Source: Crocinitomicaceae bacterium
Lineage (GTDB): Bacteria; Bacteroidota; Bacteroidia; Flavobacteriales_D; Crocinitomicaceae
Direction of reading: 5' to 3'
DNA: 64,000 nt
Assembly (NCBI GenBank): GCA_022447585.1
Contig: JAKVAR010000009.1
Location: forward strand, 555,133-619,132
A model generated the notes under the pieces. It saw nothing but the letters and a program-made list of their open reading frames with translations. It did no database searches and had not been told where the DNA came from. This document shows positions 47,148 through 53,725 of this stretch, in pieces (position 1 is the stretch's first letter; the number at the start of each line of letters is the position of its first letter). A program made the position numbers and the translations under genes.

Positions 47148-48152
47148 ATGTTTAAACTTTACCCCTTAGTTTTTATACCTGTTTTGTCGATAATTTACTA
47201 TACGACATTTCATATGATGAGTCAAACAACGGATGCCGAATATGGCTATAAATGGTCTATTATAATACTAATTGCGGTGCAGTTTGCAATACTTTGGGCA
47301 CTTGCTCAGTTTTGGATCCATAAAATGCTTAAACGTAGAAAACAATTGAACCTTAAATTGTTTATCGTTGGTGTCCTTGGCATTGTAATCGCTAACAATC
47401 TCATCTATTTTTTAGTAAAGGGAATTGCAATCAAATTTTTCGACCCCCGATTTGAAATCATTAATGGCTTCGTACTCTTGCTTAGCACCGTTGAAGGTTT
47501 TTTAAAAGGCATACTTATTATTAGTATGTTGTTTAGTCTGCATTTTTTTAAGCGATGGAGAACCGAAAACGAAGAAAACCAAAGACTCAAACAGAACGAA
47601 CTTGAACTTGAGAATAGAGCATTGAAAAGTCAATTGAACCCTCACTTTCTATTTAACAACCTCAACACACTTTCAGTATTAATTACTCAGGATCAGTATA
47701 TAGCAAATGAATTCCTGAAGGAAATGTCTGATATGTATAGGTATATTCTAAAAACAACGGATGTAGAAATAGTTCCACTAGAAGATGAATTGAAGTTTGC
47801 ACAAAACTATGGTAATTTGCTTAAAAAACGATTTGGAAAAGACTTCAACTTTAATGTTGAGATAAATAATTTGAATTTTGTTTTACCTCCAATTTCGCTT
47901 CATTTATTGTTAGAGAACGTTGTGAAACACAACAGAATTGACGCTGATTACCCAATGAATCTTTTAATTAAACAAAGCGGAAACACCCTTATCTGTAAAA
48001 ATACTGTTAACCTAAAAAACATGGTAGACTCTACAGAGAAAGGCTTGAAGATCCTTGCGGATCAATATAGATACCTGAGTAATAAAGAAATTAATGTCCA
48101 AAACGAAAATGGACTGTTCATAGTTACACTTCCATTACTAACTGTCAAATGA
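47148..48152 (+). CDS. LytS/YehU-type sensor histidine kinase
   Basis: The 334-residue protein has four membrane helices within the first 135 residues with very short loops, so it senses the membrane or a small ligand and not a large periplasmic domain. A coiled-coil linker (ENQRLKQNELELENRALK) follows. The His_kinase (PF06580) motif is LKSQLNPHFLFNNLNTLS, with phospho-acceptor His about 166. The ATPase part has LLENVVKHN and a short degenerate end. Its stop overlaps the response-regulator ATG, so it forms a standard two-component pair. Confidence 0.92.
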   Translation: MFKLYPLVFIPVLSIIYYTTFHMMSQTTDAEYGYKWSIIILIAVQFAILWALAQFWIHKMLKRRKQLNLKLFIVGVLGIVIANNLIYFLVKGIAIKFFDPRFEIINGFVLLLSTVEGFLKGILIISMLFSLHFFKRWRTENEENQRLKQNELELENRALKSQLNPHFLFNNLNTLSVLITQDQYIANEFLKEMSDMYRYILKTTDVEIVPLEDELKFAQNYGNLLKKRFGKDFNFNVEINNLNFVLPPISLHLLLENVVKHNRIDADYPMNLLIKQSGNTLICKNTVNLKNMVDSTEKGLKILADQYRYLSNKEINVQNENGLFIVTLPLLTVK

Positions 48153-48904
48153 TAAACGTACTAATCATAGAGGATGAAACACTGGCATCAAACAACCTGA
48201 ACAAAATACTATCTGAAATCAACGAGGATATACAGGTTCTAGCTAGATTACAAAGTGTTGAACAATCGATTCACTGGTTGCAACGGAATGATGCTCCTGA
48301 TCTTATATTTCTTGATATTCATTTAAGTGATGATCTGAGTTTTAAAATATTTGATGTTGTTGATGTCTCTTGCCCAATTGTATTTACAACTGCTTACGAT
48401 CAATACGCCATTAAGGCATTCGAGTTAAATAGTATCGATTACATTCTTAAACCAATTACCCCAAAGAATATTGAAAATTCAATTTCTAAATACCATTCAA
48501 GAACACCGCAGCTAAAAAAGGATTACACGCAACTGTTAAGGGATTTAAAGTCTTGTTCAACCACTGAATATAAAGAGCGCTTTATAATAAACAAAGCAGA
48601 CGAATTGATTATCGTTCCCGTGTCTGATATATCTTACTTTTACAAAAACGATGTTACCTATGTAGTTTTAAAGAATGGCCAAAAATACATCATCAACAAT
48701 ACACTAGATCATTTGGAGGAAACTTTAAATCCAACTGATTTCTATCGCATCAATCGTCAATTTGTAGTGTGTATCGATTCCATTTCAAAAATAACAATGT
48801 GGTTCAAGGGTAAAATGAAATTACAATTAACGCCAAAATATGAAGAGAATATCTTTGTTAGCCGCGATAAATCGACAAATTTTAAAGCCTGGATGGATAA
48901 ATGA
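48149..48904 (+). CDS. LytTR-family response regulator
   Basis: The 251-residue transcription factor has a receiver domain, with acidic pair Glu 8/Asp 9, phospho-acceptor Asp about 56 in DLIFLDIHLSD, FTTAYDQYAIKAFE and the Lys in YILKP. The C-terminal LytTR DNA-binding domain (about 150-251) has ISYFYKNDVTYVVLKNGQKYII and FYRINRQFVVCIDSI. Together with the overlapping kinase it controls genes that cannot be read from the sequence, since no clear LytTR operator pairs were found. A 43-codon frame follows after 6 bp. Confidence 0.93.
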   Translation: MINVLIIEDETLASNNLNKILSEINEDIQVLARLQSVEQSIHWLQRNDAPDLIFLDIHLSDDLSFKIFDVVDVSCPIVFTTAYDQYAIKAFELNSIDYILKPITPKNIENSISKYHSRTPQLKKDYTQLLRDLKSCSTTEYKERFIINKADELIIVPVSDISYFYKNDVTYVVLKNGQKYIINNTLDHLEETLNPTDFYRINRQFVVCIDSISKITMWFKGKMKLQLTPKYEENIFVSRDKSTNFKAWMDK

Positions 48905-49937: not shown

Positions 49938-50282
49938 ATGTCGCAAAACAATCACATTGATTACATAGAGTTTTATGCAAAAGACCTTGACTTAATAAAG
50001 ACATTCTACAGCGCTTGTTTCAATTGGAAGTTTACCGATTATGGTGCTAACTACACTTCTTTTGATTCTAGTGGAATAAAAGGAGGTTTTGAGAAAACGG
50101 AAGCCGACATTGTAAATGGAGCCTTAATTGTTTTATATCATGAAGATATAGACAGTTGTCTTGAAAAGATAAAAAAAGCGGGAGCCACAATATCAAAAGA
50201 ACTATTTTCTTTCCCGGGAGGGCGTAGATTTCAGTTTTTAGATCCTTCTGGCAACGAGCTATCAGTTTGGACGCATAAATAA
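49938..50282 (+). CDS. VOC-family (glyoxalase-like) protein
   Basis: The 114-residue single-module protein has the VOC pattern DYIEFYAKDLDLIKTFYSACFNW at the N-terminus, GGFEKTE in the middle, and a C-terminal FPGGRRFQFLDPSGNELSVW strand. The family members bind a metal and act on small vicinal-oxygen compounds, or bind antibiotics such as bleomycin. The function here is not known. Its stop shares one base with the start of the alkB-like gene (TAATG), so the two are translationally coupled. Confidence 0.9.
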   Translation: MSQNNHIDYIEFYAKDLDLIKTFYSACFNWKFTDYGANYTSFDSSGIKGGFEKTEADIVNGALIVLYHEDIDSCLEKIKKAGATISKELFSFPGGRRFQFLDPSGNELSVWTHK

Positions 50283-50884
50283 TGGACTTATTCAATCAAG
50301 ACACTGCACATAACATACTTCCCAAAGATGGAGAAGCTATTTACTATGGTCAAATTTTAAACGCTAAACAGAATTCGAGTTATTACGATGAATTGTTAAA
50401 CAGCATTGAATGGGTAAATGATGAGGCCAATATCTTTGGAAAGCTCATAATAACAAAGCGAAAAGTAGCTTGGTATGCAGACCATCCTTTTGAATACACC
50501 TATTCTAATCGTACTAAAGTTGCTTTGCCTTGGACAAAAGCATTGCTAGAATTAAAAGCTATTGTAGAGGAGTCCAGCGGTGAAACTTATAACTCGTGTC
50601 TTTTAAACCTATATCACAGTGGAGATGAAGGCATGGCCTGGCACAGCGATGGAGAAAGTAATCTTAAGCGAAATGGTGCAATTGGCTCTTTAAGCTTTGG
50701 GGCTGAACGTAAGTTTGCCTTTAAACATAAAGCATCAAAACAAACGGTTTCAATAGTCTTGGAAAAAGGAAGCTTACTTGTTATGAAAGGAGAAACGCAA
50801 ACACATTGGTTGCATCGCCTTCCTCCTACTACTAAGGTTAAGTCGCCCAGAATCAATTTGACGTTTCGCACAATCGTCAAATAA
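50282..50884 (+). CDS. AlkB-like Fe(II)/2-oxoglutarate DNA dealkylase
   Basis: The 200-residue dioxygenase has the double-stranded beta-helix core. The core includes LYHSGDEGMAWHSDGE (iron ligands His and Asp in WHSDGE), LSFGAERKFAFKH and SLLVMKGETQTHWLHRLP (third ligand His). PRINLTFRTI holds the 2-oxoglutarate-binding Arg. It should remove alkyl lesions from DNA or RNA bases. The gene is coupled to a VOC protein and ends next to a convergent XRE regulator. Confidence 0.9.
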   Translation: MDLFNQDTAHNILPKDGEAIYYGQILNAKQNSSYYDELLNSIEWVNDEANIFGKLIITKRKVAWYADHPFEYTYSNRTKVALPWTKALLELKAIVEESSGETYNSCLLNLYHSGDEGMAWHSDGESNLKRNGAIGSLSFGAERKFAFKHKASKQTVSIVLEKGSLLVMKGETQTHWLHRLPPTTKVKSPRINLTFRTIVK

Positions 50885-51079
50885 TTATTCTTCGTCTTCG
50901 AAAATTTCCTCAATCGGTAATTCGAATAGTTTAGCAATTCTAAATGCGAGCGGTAAACTGGGATCAAACTTCCACTTCTCCAATGCATTCACAGTTTGCC
51001 TTGATACAGCTAACAATTCTGCTAAATCGGCCTGAGCATAGTTCTTCTCGGCACGTAGTACTTTTAAACGATTTTTCAT
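50885..51079 (-). CDS. Small XRE-family HTH regulator
   Basis: The 64-residue protein is a single helix-turn-helix domain: MKNRLKVLRAEKNYAQADLA, then ELLAVSRQTVNALEKWKFDP and LAFRIAKLFELPIEEIFEDEE. It has the YgzD-like form that usually pairs with a small membrane protein. Its ATG overlaps the stop of that partner (ATGA), which is frameshifted here. It probably represses its own operon. Confidence 0.92.
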   Translation of the reverse strand: MKNRLKVLRAEKNYAQADLAELLAVSRQTVNALEKWKFDPSLPLAFRIAKLFELPIEEIFEDEE

Positions 51080-51377
51080 TTGAATCTTTTTCGACCAATT
51101 AATAACGTGATCATATAAGTTGCACCGATTATCATAATCAAGAATGAAATATCGGCGTCATTTTGAATCAAACCCTTTTGATCAAGTATCGCATAACTCA
51201 AGCCTGCTACTGCGGCAATTCCTAAAGCTAGCCCATGGCTTCTAACTGAATTCTCTTTTGAAGCTCATCCAATCCATTCATATGACGAATATTTGCCAAA
51301 ATCATACCTATCCCAAGGAGAAAGTTCAAAATTACAAACACCCAGGTAATTGTTCTGCTTTTATTCCATACAAACAT
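51076..51377 (-). pseudogene. Frameshifted small membrane protein, partner of the XRE regulator
   Basis: Reading from the ATG gives MFVWNKSRTITWVFVILNFL to RIQLEAMG and then stops. A single missing base in the run near 51231-51233 restores LALGIAAVAGLSYAILDQKG to LLIGRKRFK, whose stop overlaps the regulator ATG. The repaired product has about 100 residues and three membrane helices. It matches the common membrane protein/XRE regulator pair of bacteria. A one-base deletion in a C-run or a sequencing error explains it. Confidence 0.7.
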
Positions 51378-51413
51378 ATATCATTAAATTATTATCGTTT
51401 ATCGTTAATTAAC

Positions 51414-51421
51414 TACTTTTG
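51414..51421 (+). promoter_or_regulatory. -7 promoter box upstream of the membrane protein/HTH/MutS-like set
   Basis: TACTTTTG matches TAnnTTTG, 14 bp before the ATG at 51436. No TTG is seen at the usual distance. The leader would be very short. Confidence 0.35.
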
Positions 51422-51435
51422 TTTCAAACGAAATT

Positions 51436-51939
51436 ATGAGAACAATACCATTTATATTAAGTATTTCAATTCTGATAGGGTACAAATTACTCCAACATTT
51501 TCTGGGAAATTCATACCTCCCTCTTCTGATATTTGCACCTGTTTTTATACTTATCATTATCAACCTAGTTTTAAGGAAAAAACTCAAGCACAAAGACTGG
51601 TTTACAAAACAATTGAATTTCCTGAATGAAAAAGTAGTCTCTAAATTTGAAACGGACATTCCCCCTTCATTGATCTTTGACAAAATAATTGAACAAGTAA
51701 CAGATTCAAATTCGAAACTATACGATATGGATCGATCTAACAATCAGATTCTAGCCGGAAATTCAATTGGTTTAAGGACTTGGGGCGAAAATTTATACAT
51801 AGATATTGAAAGTATTGATGGGGAAAAATCAATGATTACTTTAACGAGTGTTACCGTGTTTGGTTTGGTTTCATGGAATAAGAACAAGGAGAACATTGAG
51901 CATTTCCACACTTCCTTTAAAGAATCTCTAACAATTTAA
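51436..51939 (+). CDS. Small membrane protein with soluble tail, unknown function
   Basis: The 167-residue protein has two hydrophobic segments in the first 50 residues (PFILSISILIGYKLL and LPLLIFAPVFILIIINLVL) and a soluble domain of about 100 residues. The soluble domain contains QILAGNSIGLRTWGENLYID and ITLTSVTVFGLVSWNKN. I do not recognise a family. It lies 3 bp upstream of a small HTH gene and then a MutS-like ATPase gene, all on the plus strand with minimal gaps, so it is probably part of that operon. Confidence 0.65.
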   Translation: MRTIPFILSISILIGYKLLQHFLGNSYLPLLIFAPVFILIIINLVLRKKLKHKDWFTKQLNFLNEKVVSKFETDIPPSLIFDKIIEQVTDSNSKLYDMDRSNNQILAGNSIGLRTWGENLYIDIESIDGEKSMITLTSVTVFGLVSWNKNKENIEHFHTSFKESLTI

Positions 51940-51942
51940 GTC

Positions 51943-52167
51943 ATGGGAATTATTGTAAACTTAGACGTTATGTTGGCGAAACGTAAAATGAAATTAAAAG
52001 AGCTTTCTGCCGAAATTGGTATTTCCGTTGTGAACTTATCTATTCTTAAACAAAGTAAAGCCAAGGCAATACGATTCTCTACCCTAGAGGCTATATGCGA
52101 AGTTCTTGATTGTCAACCTGGCGACATTTTAGAGTTTGTCCCTAAAAATATTGATTCCCATGTTTAA
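51943..52167 (+). CDS. Small Cro/C1-type HTH regulator
   Basis: The 74-residue protein has a Cro/C1 helix-turn-helix: VMLAKRKMKLKELSAEIGIS, VVNLSILKQSKAKAIRFST, then EAICEVLDCQPGDILEF. This is the YozG-like group of small regulators, which often control the membrane protein next to them. It follows the membrane-protein gene by 3 bp and its last 8 bp overlap the MutS-like gene start. It therefore probably regulates this small operon. Confidence 0.9.
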   Translation: MGIIVNLDVMLAKRKMKLKELSAEIGISVVNLSILKQSKAKAIRFSTLEAICEVLDCQPGDILEFVPKNIDSHV

Positions 52168-53725
52168 CAAAAAGAAACACAGACGACAGCAACTCGAAGA
52201 TACGTTTGGTGATATCAAGACAGAAAACCTAAATCTAAATGTTGTAAAACGCTATTTTGAGCGTAAAAGTGATCCAAATGCGCTGCAAATTGTTAGCGAA
52301 CAGACATGCGATGATTTAGACTTTGATTTGTTCTTTAGTTATATTGATCGGACCCAATCTAGGATTGGGCAACAAGCTTTATATGCGCAATTACGAACAA
52401 TTAAGGACAGGAAATTACAATTTCAAGAACAGGAAGCTTTGATAGATCTCTTTAATGAAAATCGAAGTAAGCGAAATAAAACCCAATACGAGTTGTCGCG
52501 ATTAAACTCAAGAAAAGCCTATTACATTTCAGATCTATTTCAATCCCCCCCCTTCAAAAAACCGAGCTGGAGCTTTATAATACCAATTCTAAGCATATTA
52601 ATCACTGTTTCAATTCCATTAGCCTTTTTCTCTACTTGGTTTGCTCTTATTTTAATGCTATTGCTGCCGATACATGTATTGATTCATTTTGCTTTAAAAC
52701 GAAGTGTAAGTGTGTTCATTGACTCAATTCCGCAATTGTTAACCATGAGCTCTGTAGCAAACAAATTAGTCAAGTTAAACCTCACAGAAACAAGTAATAA
52801 CATCATATTTTCCTTGAAAACGGTAACATCCATAAAACGGAGAATGTCTTTTTTCAAGCTTGAACAAAAAGTAGACAGCGACATGGAAGCAGCTTATTGG
52901 TTTTTAATTGAAATGATTAAGATTACCTTCCTATTAGAACCTCTTCTAATGTTCAGTGCAGCCAAAAAGCTCGATCACAAACAAAGAGACATCGAAACTG
53001 TATTTGACTACATTGCACAGATTGATTTGGCCCTTTCCATAAATGCCTTAAGAAATAATGTCGAGCAATATTGTATTCCAAATATTATTGAAAATGGAAC
53101 CTTAAAAGCGACAGGAATACATCATCCTTTAATCGTCAACTGTGTTTCTAATTCTATTGAATTGACCAATAAATCATTTTTATTAACGGGTTCAAACATG
53201 TCGGGAAAAACAACGTTAATGAGAACCATTGGACTGAACCATCTTAGCTCATTAAGTTTAAACACCGCCTTTGCTGAAGAGATAAAACTTCCATGCTGTA
53301 AAATCTACTCCATGATTCGAGTATCTGACGATTTAATGGAATCTACGAGCTATTTCATGAAAGAACTAGAATTGGTAAAAGCATTTATTGACGATACCAC
53401 TAAAGGAAAGAAGCTTATTTTGTTGGACGAATTATTTAAAGGAACCAATACCTCTGAAAGAATTGCATCTGCCAGTGCCGTTCTTTCACATTTGCAACAT
53501 ACAGGTAATTTTGTTTTTGTTGCTTCCCATGATTTAGAATTAAGTGAACAGCTTAAAAACGAATACGACACTTTTCATTTAGGTGAAACAGTTCTGGAAA
53601 ATGAAATTAACTTCAATTACACTCTATCTCGAGGAAATCCTGAAAAAGGTAACGCGATTGAGTTAATGCGGATCAGTGATTTTCCTATATCAATAATAAA
53701 TCGTGCTAAAGAACTCGTGAGTTAG
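52160..53725 (+). CDS. MutS-family ATPase with membrane anchor
   Basis: From MFNKKKHRRQQ the 521-residue protein has an N-terminal helical region and two membrane helices at about 137-182 (SFIIPILSILITVSIPLAFF and LILMLLLPIHVLIHF). A clamp-like helical part follows, and then the MutS ATPase domain: TGSNMSGKTTLMRTIGLN (P-loop about 342-349), LILLDELFKGTN (Walker B) and the FVFVASHDLELSE His switch. It lacks the mismatch-binding domain I and the MutS2 Smr domain. It is therefore a Bacteroidota-type MutS-related protein rather than mismatch repair MutS. Its role is unknown. Confidence 0.88.
   Translation: MFNKKKHRRQQLEDTFGDIKTENLNLNVVKRYFERKSDPNALQIVSEQTCDDLDFDLFFSYIDRTQSRIGQQALYAQLRTIKDRKLQFQEQEALIDLFNENRSKRNKTQYELSRLNSRKAYYISDLFQSPPFKKPSWSFIIPILSILITVSIPLAFFSTWFALILMLLLPIHVLIHFALKRSVSVFIDSIPQLLTMSSVANKLVKLNLTETSNNIIFSLKTVTSIKRRMSFFKLEQKVDSDMEAAYWFLIEMIKITFLLEPLLMFSAAKKLDHKQRDIETVFDYIAQIDLALSINALRNNVEQYCIPNIIENGTLKATGIHHPLIVNCVSNSIELTNKSFLLTGSNMSGKTTLMRTIGLNHLSSLSLNTAFAEEIKLPCCKIYSMIRVSDDLMESTSYFMKELELVKAFIDDTTKGKKLILLDELFKGTNTSERIASASAVLSHLQHTGNFVFVASHDLELSEQLKNEYDTFHLGETVLENEINFNYTLSRGNPEKGNAIELMRISDFPISIINRAKELVS

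Follow-up and report, generated by a model that had tools for sequence, protein, structure and literature searches.

A cassette of a membrane protein, an HTH_26 regulator and a membrane-embedded MutS-type ATPase in Crocinitomicaceae and their relatives

Introduction

Gene pairs formed by an HTH_26 regulator and a membrane protein have already been described, and as a kind they are known, if little studied. The usual membrane partner in these pairs is DUF2975, which we take to be the family of YoaS. The passage of Makarova et al. 2009 that deals with such pairs records 32 occurrences of Xre genes with 'YoaS-like' membrane proteins, which were set aside there (PMC2701414). Another comparison is offered by the LytTR Regulatory Systems (HdrRM, BrsRM), which combine a membrane inhibitor with an autoregulated transcription factor binding at the operon promoter, according to the part of PMC6193735 that outlines them. 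As to MutS-type ATPases, the nearest described groups are MutS and MutS2 (PF00488) and KamC, the lysine 5,6-aminomutase reactivase ATPase (NF052383), which is of interest as a MutS-type ATPase whose name refers to a task away from DNA; no literature on KamC-like reactivases was found. Some major MutS subfamilies are wholly uncharacterised, as stated in a section of PMC12292046.

Here we analyse a three-gene locus in a stretch of 64,000 nucleotides, below called the window, from a Crocinitomicaceae bacterium (assembly of 4.48 Mb in 201 contigs). No studies of its ATPase, of the C-terminal tail or of the operator described below were found in the literature on membrane MutS, MutS subfamilies and DUF2975, the matches to the names YozG and YoaS having been sampled slightly.

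Results

Organisation of the locus

Three touching open reading frames lie on the plus strand. The first, P0001 (51436..51939), encodes 167 aa; the second (51943..52167) encodes a Cro/C1-type regulator of 74 aa; the third (52160..53725) encodes a MutS-like ATPase of 521 aa with predicted membrane helices. The gap between P0001 and the HTH gene is 3 bp, and the ATPase gene, read from the ATG at 52160 rather than from the TTG at 52136 given in the mechanical list of frames, overlaps the end of the HTH gene, its stop codon included, by 8 bp (52160-52167). This is the layout given by an earlier, sequence-only reading of the locus, and the coordinates agree with it. Judging by this spacing, the three genes look like a single operon. 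The arrangement is not a chance one, since other genomes have these three genes in this order too.

The regulator matches HTH_26 (PF13443, residues 6-68) with 85 bits at a Pfam cut-off of 22. The locus resembles the HTH_26-DUF2975 pairs in the type of the HTH, in the membrane gene directly upstream, and in the tail and the form of the operator: it agrees with the rules for such pairs derived here, an x-x-x-L-T-[IV] tail and a TTAWYG-N5-CRWTAA operator. However, the upstream partner is P0001 instead of DUF2975, with no detectable kinship to the latter and with a putative helix-grip-like domain, and an ATPase gene occupies the third place. With the LytTR Regulatory Systems the locus shares the combination of a membrane protein with a transcription factor and the candidate sites at the operon promoter. 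Those systems have a LytTR regulator and direct repeats, whereas the cassette has an HTH_26 regulator, a palindrome and the reversed gene order.

P0001 and the other membrane partners of the regulator

P0001 scores below every Pfam cut-off. The DUF2975 model (PF11188) gives no match to it at E 0.1, and it was not among the PF11188 matches in a search of its own genome. In the structure model (pLDDT 83.5, pTM 0.72) the protein starts with two helices predicted to lie in the membrane (3-23 and 28-46); hydropathy marks only 22-50, and the helix 3-23 rests on the model. These are followed by a strand-helix-strand domain, its last helix being long. Residues 61-167 match ARO/CYC, PR-10 and PYR/PYL proteins in VIA with Z up to 10.3, and the helix-grip (START/Bet v 1) comparison in Foldseek yields E 2e-5 and TM about 0.5. 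A helix-grip-like fold with a ligand pocket is thus a lead for the modelled domain, and only a lead, because other folds score nearly equally (the KA1 domain has Z 9.7). The basic residues RKKLKHK directly past the second helix suggest, by the positive-inside rule, that the domain is cytosolic.

P0001 and DUF2975 are two membrane families, each preceding the same type of HTH. The set of partners comprises 53 proteins, of which 16 are of the P0001 type and 35 of the remaining 37 match DUF2975. The HTH of such pairs occurs in 44 of the 198 genomes sampled from the phylum, and in the Bacteroidota set a single regulator (L181) has no partner. Judged from these gene neighbourhoods, the constant companion of the HTH is a membrane protein, and the two form one unit. 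The HTH also occurs in viral contigs (three loci, every partner ending in LT[IV]) and in 176 plasmid records. Among the twelve plasmid loci that we read, chosen from 30 of these records, one HTH follows a TolC gene, and others have no partner or a doubtful open-frame call. A fusion of the HTH with a membrane protein, which would prove contact, was sought in three loci with long frames, and none of them is a fusion.

The C-terminal tail

The relatives of P0001 end in E-x-S-L-T-[IV], and DUF2975 proteins in E-[NQ]-[DEK]-L-T-[IV]. The copy in the window ends in K-E-S-L-T-I (residues 162-167, codons and stop at 51919..51939, plus strand), with lysine and not an acidic residue at position -5. Among the 53 partners the last residue is isoleucine or valine in all 53, leucine stands at -2 in 52, threonine at -1 in 47 and an acidic residue at -5 in 50; as for the operator below, the rule and the counts were drawn from largely the same sequences. 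The codons of the tail vary freely, so conservation acts at the level of protein, and hence a cause at the nucleotide level, such as an operator or a translation signal, was rejected.

The tail follows the presence of the regulator. Among the matches listed, 30 DUF2975 loci were compared: LT[IV] ends the protein in 20 of 20 cases with an HTH in the operon, and in none of the 10 cases having no HTH of the A3 type (A3 being our HTH alignment) in the 3.3-kb stretch. In the former group the HTH gene is adjoining in 13 cases, lies at most 750 bp downstream in six, and is beyond the fetched stretch in one (L231); 12 of these 20 operons overlap the set of 53 partners. In the latter group, L219 ends in LIV and adjoins a transposase-like gene, L238 ends in HTV, and in L222 the DUF2975 gene is followed by a broken HTH-like frame. 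The same contrast is seen by eye within one subgroup of look-alike DUF2975 proteins, L220 having the HTH and L221 and L227 having none. Three weak relatives of the P0001 type (L140, L141, L155) have neither an HTH in their loci nor the tail. In the control, 8 of 805 non-partner frames of at least 100 aa end in LT[IV], and seven of these eight are genes of the DUF2975 type in tandem operons (five assigned by position, two in L084). The gene upstream of the HTH in L202 ends in NNLTI. At the twelve plasmid loci the tail is weaker: LT[IV] ends the partner at one, and valine or isoleucine at eight.

By these counts, the E-x-x-L-T-[IV] tail tracks the HTH gene within Bacteroidota, with a weaker LT[IV] elsewhere. 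The Pfam model of DUF2975 extends to the C-terminus, and therefore implicitly contains the tail as far as DUF2975 is concerned. What is new is that P0001 and DUF2975 have the tail in common, and this sharing is not implicit there. The two families give a probability of 0.2% in hhalign, so the tail is common to proteins without detectable kinship. Most simply read, the tail would serve to dock the HTH.

The operator-like palindrome

An exact TTAWYG-N5-CRWTAA palindrome, TTATCGTTTATCGTTAA, is situated at 51392..51408 (plus strand), 27 bp upstream of the P0001 start codon. It is followed by a possible -7 promoter element, TACTTTTG at 51414..51421 (plus strand), read directly from the sequence; it fits TAnnTTTG, which we take to be the consensus of Bacteroidota promoters. 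With this promoter the putative operator would cover the -33 region.

The exact pattern is present in 34 of 48 regions upstream of pairs (the window included, the masked L038 omitted), with 0.035 expected from dinucleotide shuffles. Several of the 14 regions without it lie behind another DUF2975 gene in a tandem operon, and one belongs to a broken gene. Among 42 pairs with an exact site, the half-site ends in TTAA in all 14 of the P0001 type and in ATAA in all 28 of the DUF2975 type. At that, the residues preceding the conserved N of N-L-S-[IV]-L-K in the HTH are S-x-V-N in 14 of 14 regulators of the P0001 type, versus mostly T-x-[AS]-N in the DUF2975 type. The cassette promoter thus carries a 17-bp candidate operator whose half-site changes with the subtype of the HTH, as would be expected if this HTH bound this site. 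The subtypes may each be one clade, and therefore the 14 and 28 pairs are not 42 independent events.

The genome of the window has two exact matches to the operator, one of them at the cassette. Since matches with at most two mismatches number 131, fewer than the 155 found for the reversed-pattern control, no regulon is claimed and this possibility was rejected. No operator precedes any of 79 solo ATPase genes. When 82 ATPase genes without a cassette in front were scanned, L084 and L104 included, both of which stand behind an HTH, one had the operator, namely L110, where the pair is divergent.

The MutS-type ATPase

The 521-aa protein is a member of the MutS superfamily: MutS_V (PF00488) is recognised with 94.8 bits at a Pfam cut-off of 30.2, and the structure model (mean pLDDT 91.4, pTM 0.90) matches Taq MutS (1nne_B) with Z 29.8 over 416 aligned residues at 4.4 A, and also MutS2 with Z about 25. 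Domain V and a part of core domain III are common to this protein and MutS/MutS2. The ATPase domain spans about 320-521 and contains GSNMSGKTT at 344-352, to which we apply the name Walker A. The ATP-site residues G344, G349, K350, D423, E424 and H457 are invariant in the 76 rows of the ATPase alignment A5, which includes the window protein and omits four of the 79 locus proteins that passed the filter (L089, L092, L096, L098), all four being present in the 83-row tree below.

The remaining parts differ from MutS. The profile of the 76 rows aligns with Taq MutS in two pieces, 270-332 (weakly) and 499-763, and skips 333-498. In bacterial MutS the clamp and the levers sit in the middle of the core domain, by the domain limits given in one section of PMC12292046; on an approximate mapping across species, the skipped stretch seems to be the kind of place that holds them. 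Between 83 and 307 the model is free of strands with three or more residues; it features a hairpin of helices 136-154 and 159-178. By hydropathy, 135-181 is the single long hydrophobic stretch, and 247-266 is weakly so. The hairpin keeps its hydrophobic character in all 76 rows, and 39 rows have an extra hydrophobic stretch at the N-terminus. The two membrane helices placed at 137-182 by the sequence-only reading are therefore borne out, and the soluble character that would have told against them is not seen. Its description of the helices as lying before a clamp was mistaken, there being no clamp domain in the protein.

Neither the profile alignment nor the model revealed mismatch domain I, connector domain II or clamp domain IV. 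Lacking these domains, the protein is not a normal mismatch-repair protein, and here the earlier reading, which had already noted the lack of the mismatch-reading domain, was right. The scores against named families fall far below the cut-offs: 94.3 bits for NCBIfam mutS1 (641.7), 81.9 for the mutS2 equivalog (400) and, over residues 268-469, 80.9 for KamC (300). The product of the third gene is confidently modelled as a MutS core with the ATPase domain, in which the hairpin replaces the levers and the clamp. The invariant ATP site, the hairpin and the missing clamp region point to a MutS-type ATPase that looks active, is bound to the membrane and is devoid of the known parts for reading mismatches and clasping DNA.

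Three further MutS_V proteins are encoded in the same genome, their open frames being 896, 712 and 610 aa long. The last one (589 aa from its ATG) also has membrane-like stretches, as judged by eye.

Conservation and spread of the cassette

In the family search, covering 200 genomes with that of the window included, ATPases with more than 300 bits are found at nine places in eight genomes (a further G177 fragment at a contig edge was left out). Five of the nine places are cassettes with the genes in order (the window, G056 contig 78, G015, G177 and G080), and four are outside cassettes (G159, G023, G056 contig 67 and G005). The HTH-ATPase spacing in the five cassettes ranges from -11 to +6 bp, and the flanking genes vary between genomes, as expected of a set that moves. 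The sequence-only reading had made the neighbourhood in relatives a possible refutation; the three genes do adjoin in several other genomes.

In the order, 399 genomes were searched with the P0001 profile, which detects 18 genes in 17 of them. The HTH gene is directly behind 16 of them, and the two others (G327, G038) are weak matches. The ATPase is third behind eight of the 16 pairs (G000, G015, G056 contig 78, G080, G177, G230, G265 and G209), being intact in seven and truncated in G209, where the last 233 aa remain; in G265 the P0001 frame is broken. Behind the other eight pairs the ATPase is absent, and the gene in third position in G130 is an unrelated one, DUF4265. In a sample of 150 genomes of the order, all six ATPases with more than 350 bits stand behind the pair (G015, G080, G265, G230, G000, G209). 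Phylum-wide the P0001 family is nearly absent, with matches in two of 296 genomes, that of the window and one with a weak partial match.

The ATPase has a wider distribution. Named genomes contain at least 580 relatives, the best 80 of which belong mainly to Bacteroidota, and also to Bacillota, Spirochaetota, Planctomycetota and others. An A3-type HTH is present in the flanks, some of them short, of four of these 80 loci, and 76 have none. L045 (Brumimicrobium mesophilum) shares its contig with G056, and the contig of L104 is that of G209. L084 (Bacteroides ndongoniae) has two DUF2975 genes, a third DUF2975 match below the cut-off, the HTH and the ATPase, and in L110 (Pedobacter sp. ASV12) a DUF2975-HTH pair is divergent to the ATPase. 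In L116 from Bacillota, the genes in front of the ATPase are those of an HTH_3 regulator and of a small membrane protein of a different kind. The suggestion of a MutS machine with its own regulator holds in part: the set recurs in relatives, but the ATPase usually occurs apart from P0001 and the HTH.

A quick 83-row tree unites the six intact main-type cassette ATPases in a single clade (SH-aLRT 100). Since the G230 protein groups with the solo ATPase of G023 (support 99), apart from this clade, and the L084 protein groups with other Bacteroidaceae, the ATPase seems to have joined the regulator pair more than once. It looks like a third gene recruited repeatedly by the HTH and its constant companion. 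The three-gene cassette is real and conserved, and apparently mobile.

Two further settings were considered and rejected. Carriage of the ATPase by phages was dismissed on finding no relatives among 124 candidate stretches of viral contigs. As for a defence island, a PADLOC scan of ten neighbours gave two matches, both read as ordinary genes: PDC-M60B is a LytTR-type response regulator (48149-48901) and CARF_2OG is a 2OG-oxygenase (50282-50881). In the same library, which shows no cut-offs, the HTH has 21.4 bits (HTH_VI), the ATPase has weak partial matches (20.8, mad8; 18.9, PtuA), and P0001 matches no model.

Discussion

Besides the shared tail and the palindrome, which are new, the set adds an uncharacterised branch of membrane MutS proteins as the third member to the HTH_26-membrane partner kind. 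It has the look of a membrane device under its own control, not that of a repair system. Our preferred reading, held tentatively and at somewhat less than even confidence, is an autoregulated cassette in which the P0001 tail serves the regulator as a docking point at the membrane and the co-expressed MutS-type ATPase acts as a membrane effector; it is the docking and the job of the ATPase that we infer. The HTH would bind the palindrome and set the level of its own operon. P0001 would be an inner-membrane protein whose helix-grip-like domain faces the cytosol, and its tail would dock the HTH, holding or releasing it in response to a signal from the membrane or from a hydrophobic ligand. Produced in proportion, the ATPase would act as a membrane-bound dimer that applies the ATP cycle of MutS proteins to a membrane or to a protein, not to DNA, and would be the output of the cassette. 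The logic would be similar in kind to that of the LytTR Regulatory Systems, with an ATPase added. Most of the ATPases occur without the pair, and the solo copies have no operator; therefore the ATPase need not act on P0001 or the HTH.

One could dispense with a shared mechanism altogether, leaving a plain autoregulated HTH-P0001 pair with the ATPase as an independent passenger that profits from the promoter. The many ATPase loci without the pair, the half of the pairs without the ATPase and the DUF4265 gene of G130 are what such a passenger would predict, and we consider this account unlikely but deserving of serious attention. It fits less well with the position of all six short-type ATPases behind the pair in the 150 genomes of the order, although in the family sample this holds for five of nine, and with the separate joining of at least two ATPase lineages and of a DUF2975 version. 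Conversely, the ATPase might be involved more intimately, as a signal transducer whose ATP-driven opening and closing loads the HTH onto the P0001 tail or frees it, with E-x-x-L-T-[IV] as a general docking handle for such small regulators, reused by unrelated membrane sensors. If true, a DNA-repair fold would have been turned into a transmembrane signalling motor; we give this rather little credence. The tail could also have nothing to do with docking and instead mark the membrane protein for degradation or sorting, given that proteases commonly recognise a free hydrophobic C-terminus. Its presence in DUF2975 genes with an HTH in the operon and its absence from those without, together with its occurrence in two unrelated-looking families, argue against that, and make it improbable.

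A toxin-antitoxin-like module, in which P0001 or the ATPase would be a membrane toxin and the HTH would restrain it via the tail, is about as improbable. A small HTH next to a membrane protein and sporadic, plasmid-borne relatives are in keeping with such a module, and in the answer to a reviewer printed with their paper Makarova et al. 2009 allow that pairs with a membrane protein as the putative toxin could be novel systems (PMC2701414). However, the pair was dropped in the relevant part of the same paper, with no type II system having a membrane component detected (PMC2701414), and P0001 has no counterpart among the PADLOC models. The MutS fold with its complete ATP site could, finally, serve a membrane-anchored protein of DNA transactions, for example at incoming or segregating DNA, but with domains I and II and the clamp absent we regard this as very improbable.

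The six-residue tail, missing where the regulator is absent, and the defined operator make direct binding tests possible. The cassette is thereby a testable handle on the workings of the HTH_26-membrane protein pairs and on the jobs of uncharacterised MutS subfamilies.

Other partners of the ATPase and of the regulator pair

At the Bacillota locus L116:311-2694, the gene for a relative of the ATPase directly follows two others, one encoding an HTH_3 regulator and one a small membrane protein; these two make up a further kind of regulator pair linked with a membrane MutS. In Bacteroides ndongoniae (L084:3768-7494), three membrane genes in tandem are followed by an HTH gene and a MutS-like ATPase gene. 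All three membrane proteins end in DLTI, and two of them score above the cut-off for DUF2975, the usual upstream membrane partner of this HTH type. The window's own genome carries a longer MutS-like paralogue of 589 aa (contig 158, L002:1459-3228), and matches as long as this one are seen repeatedly in many genomes of the family. Additional membrane-like stretches were noted by eye in the paralogue.

The P0001–HTH pair occurs with a different third gene in genome G130 (L196:1223-2388). There is no ATPase there; the third place is taken by a DUF4265 protein (81 bits), whose gene starts 3 bp past the HTH gene.

Pairs on plasmids, apparently decayed pairs and tails

The HTH type is found in 176 plasmid records (64 from Klebsiella, 30 from Streptomyces, 18 from Priestia), with a DUF2975 gene annotated immediately upstream in seven of the twelve records read.

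Divergent to the cassette, on the reverse strand (window positions 50885-51382), a 64-aa HTH_3 regulator is encoded behind a small membrane-protein gene. The frame of the latter is broken; this is another HTH–membrane protein pair, which has apparently decayed.

Three weak relatives of the P0001 domain (L140:481-894, L141:1504-1806, L155:1354-1764) have neither an HTH gene in their loci nor the C-terminal LT[IV] tail. Two DUF2975 genes lack an intact HTH gene: one, with the tail LIV, adjoins transposase-like genes (L219), and the other sits upstream of a broken HTH-like frame (L222). Both look to have parted from their HTH recently, and the DUF2975 tail may decay once the regulator is lost.
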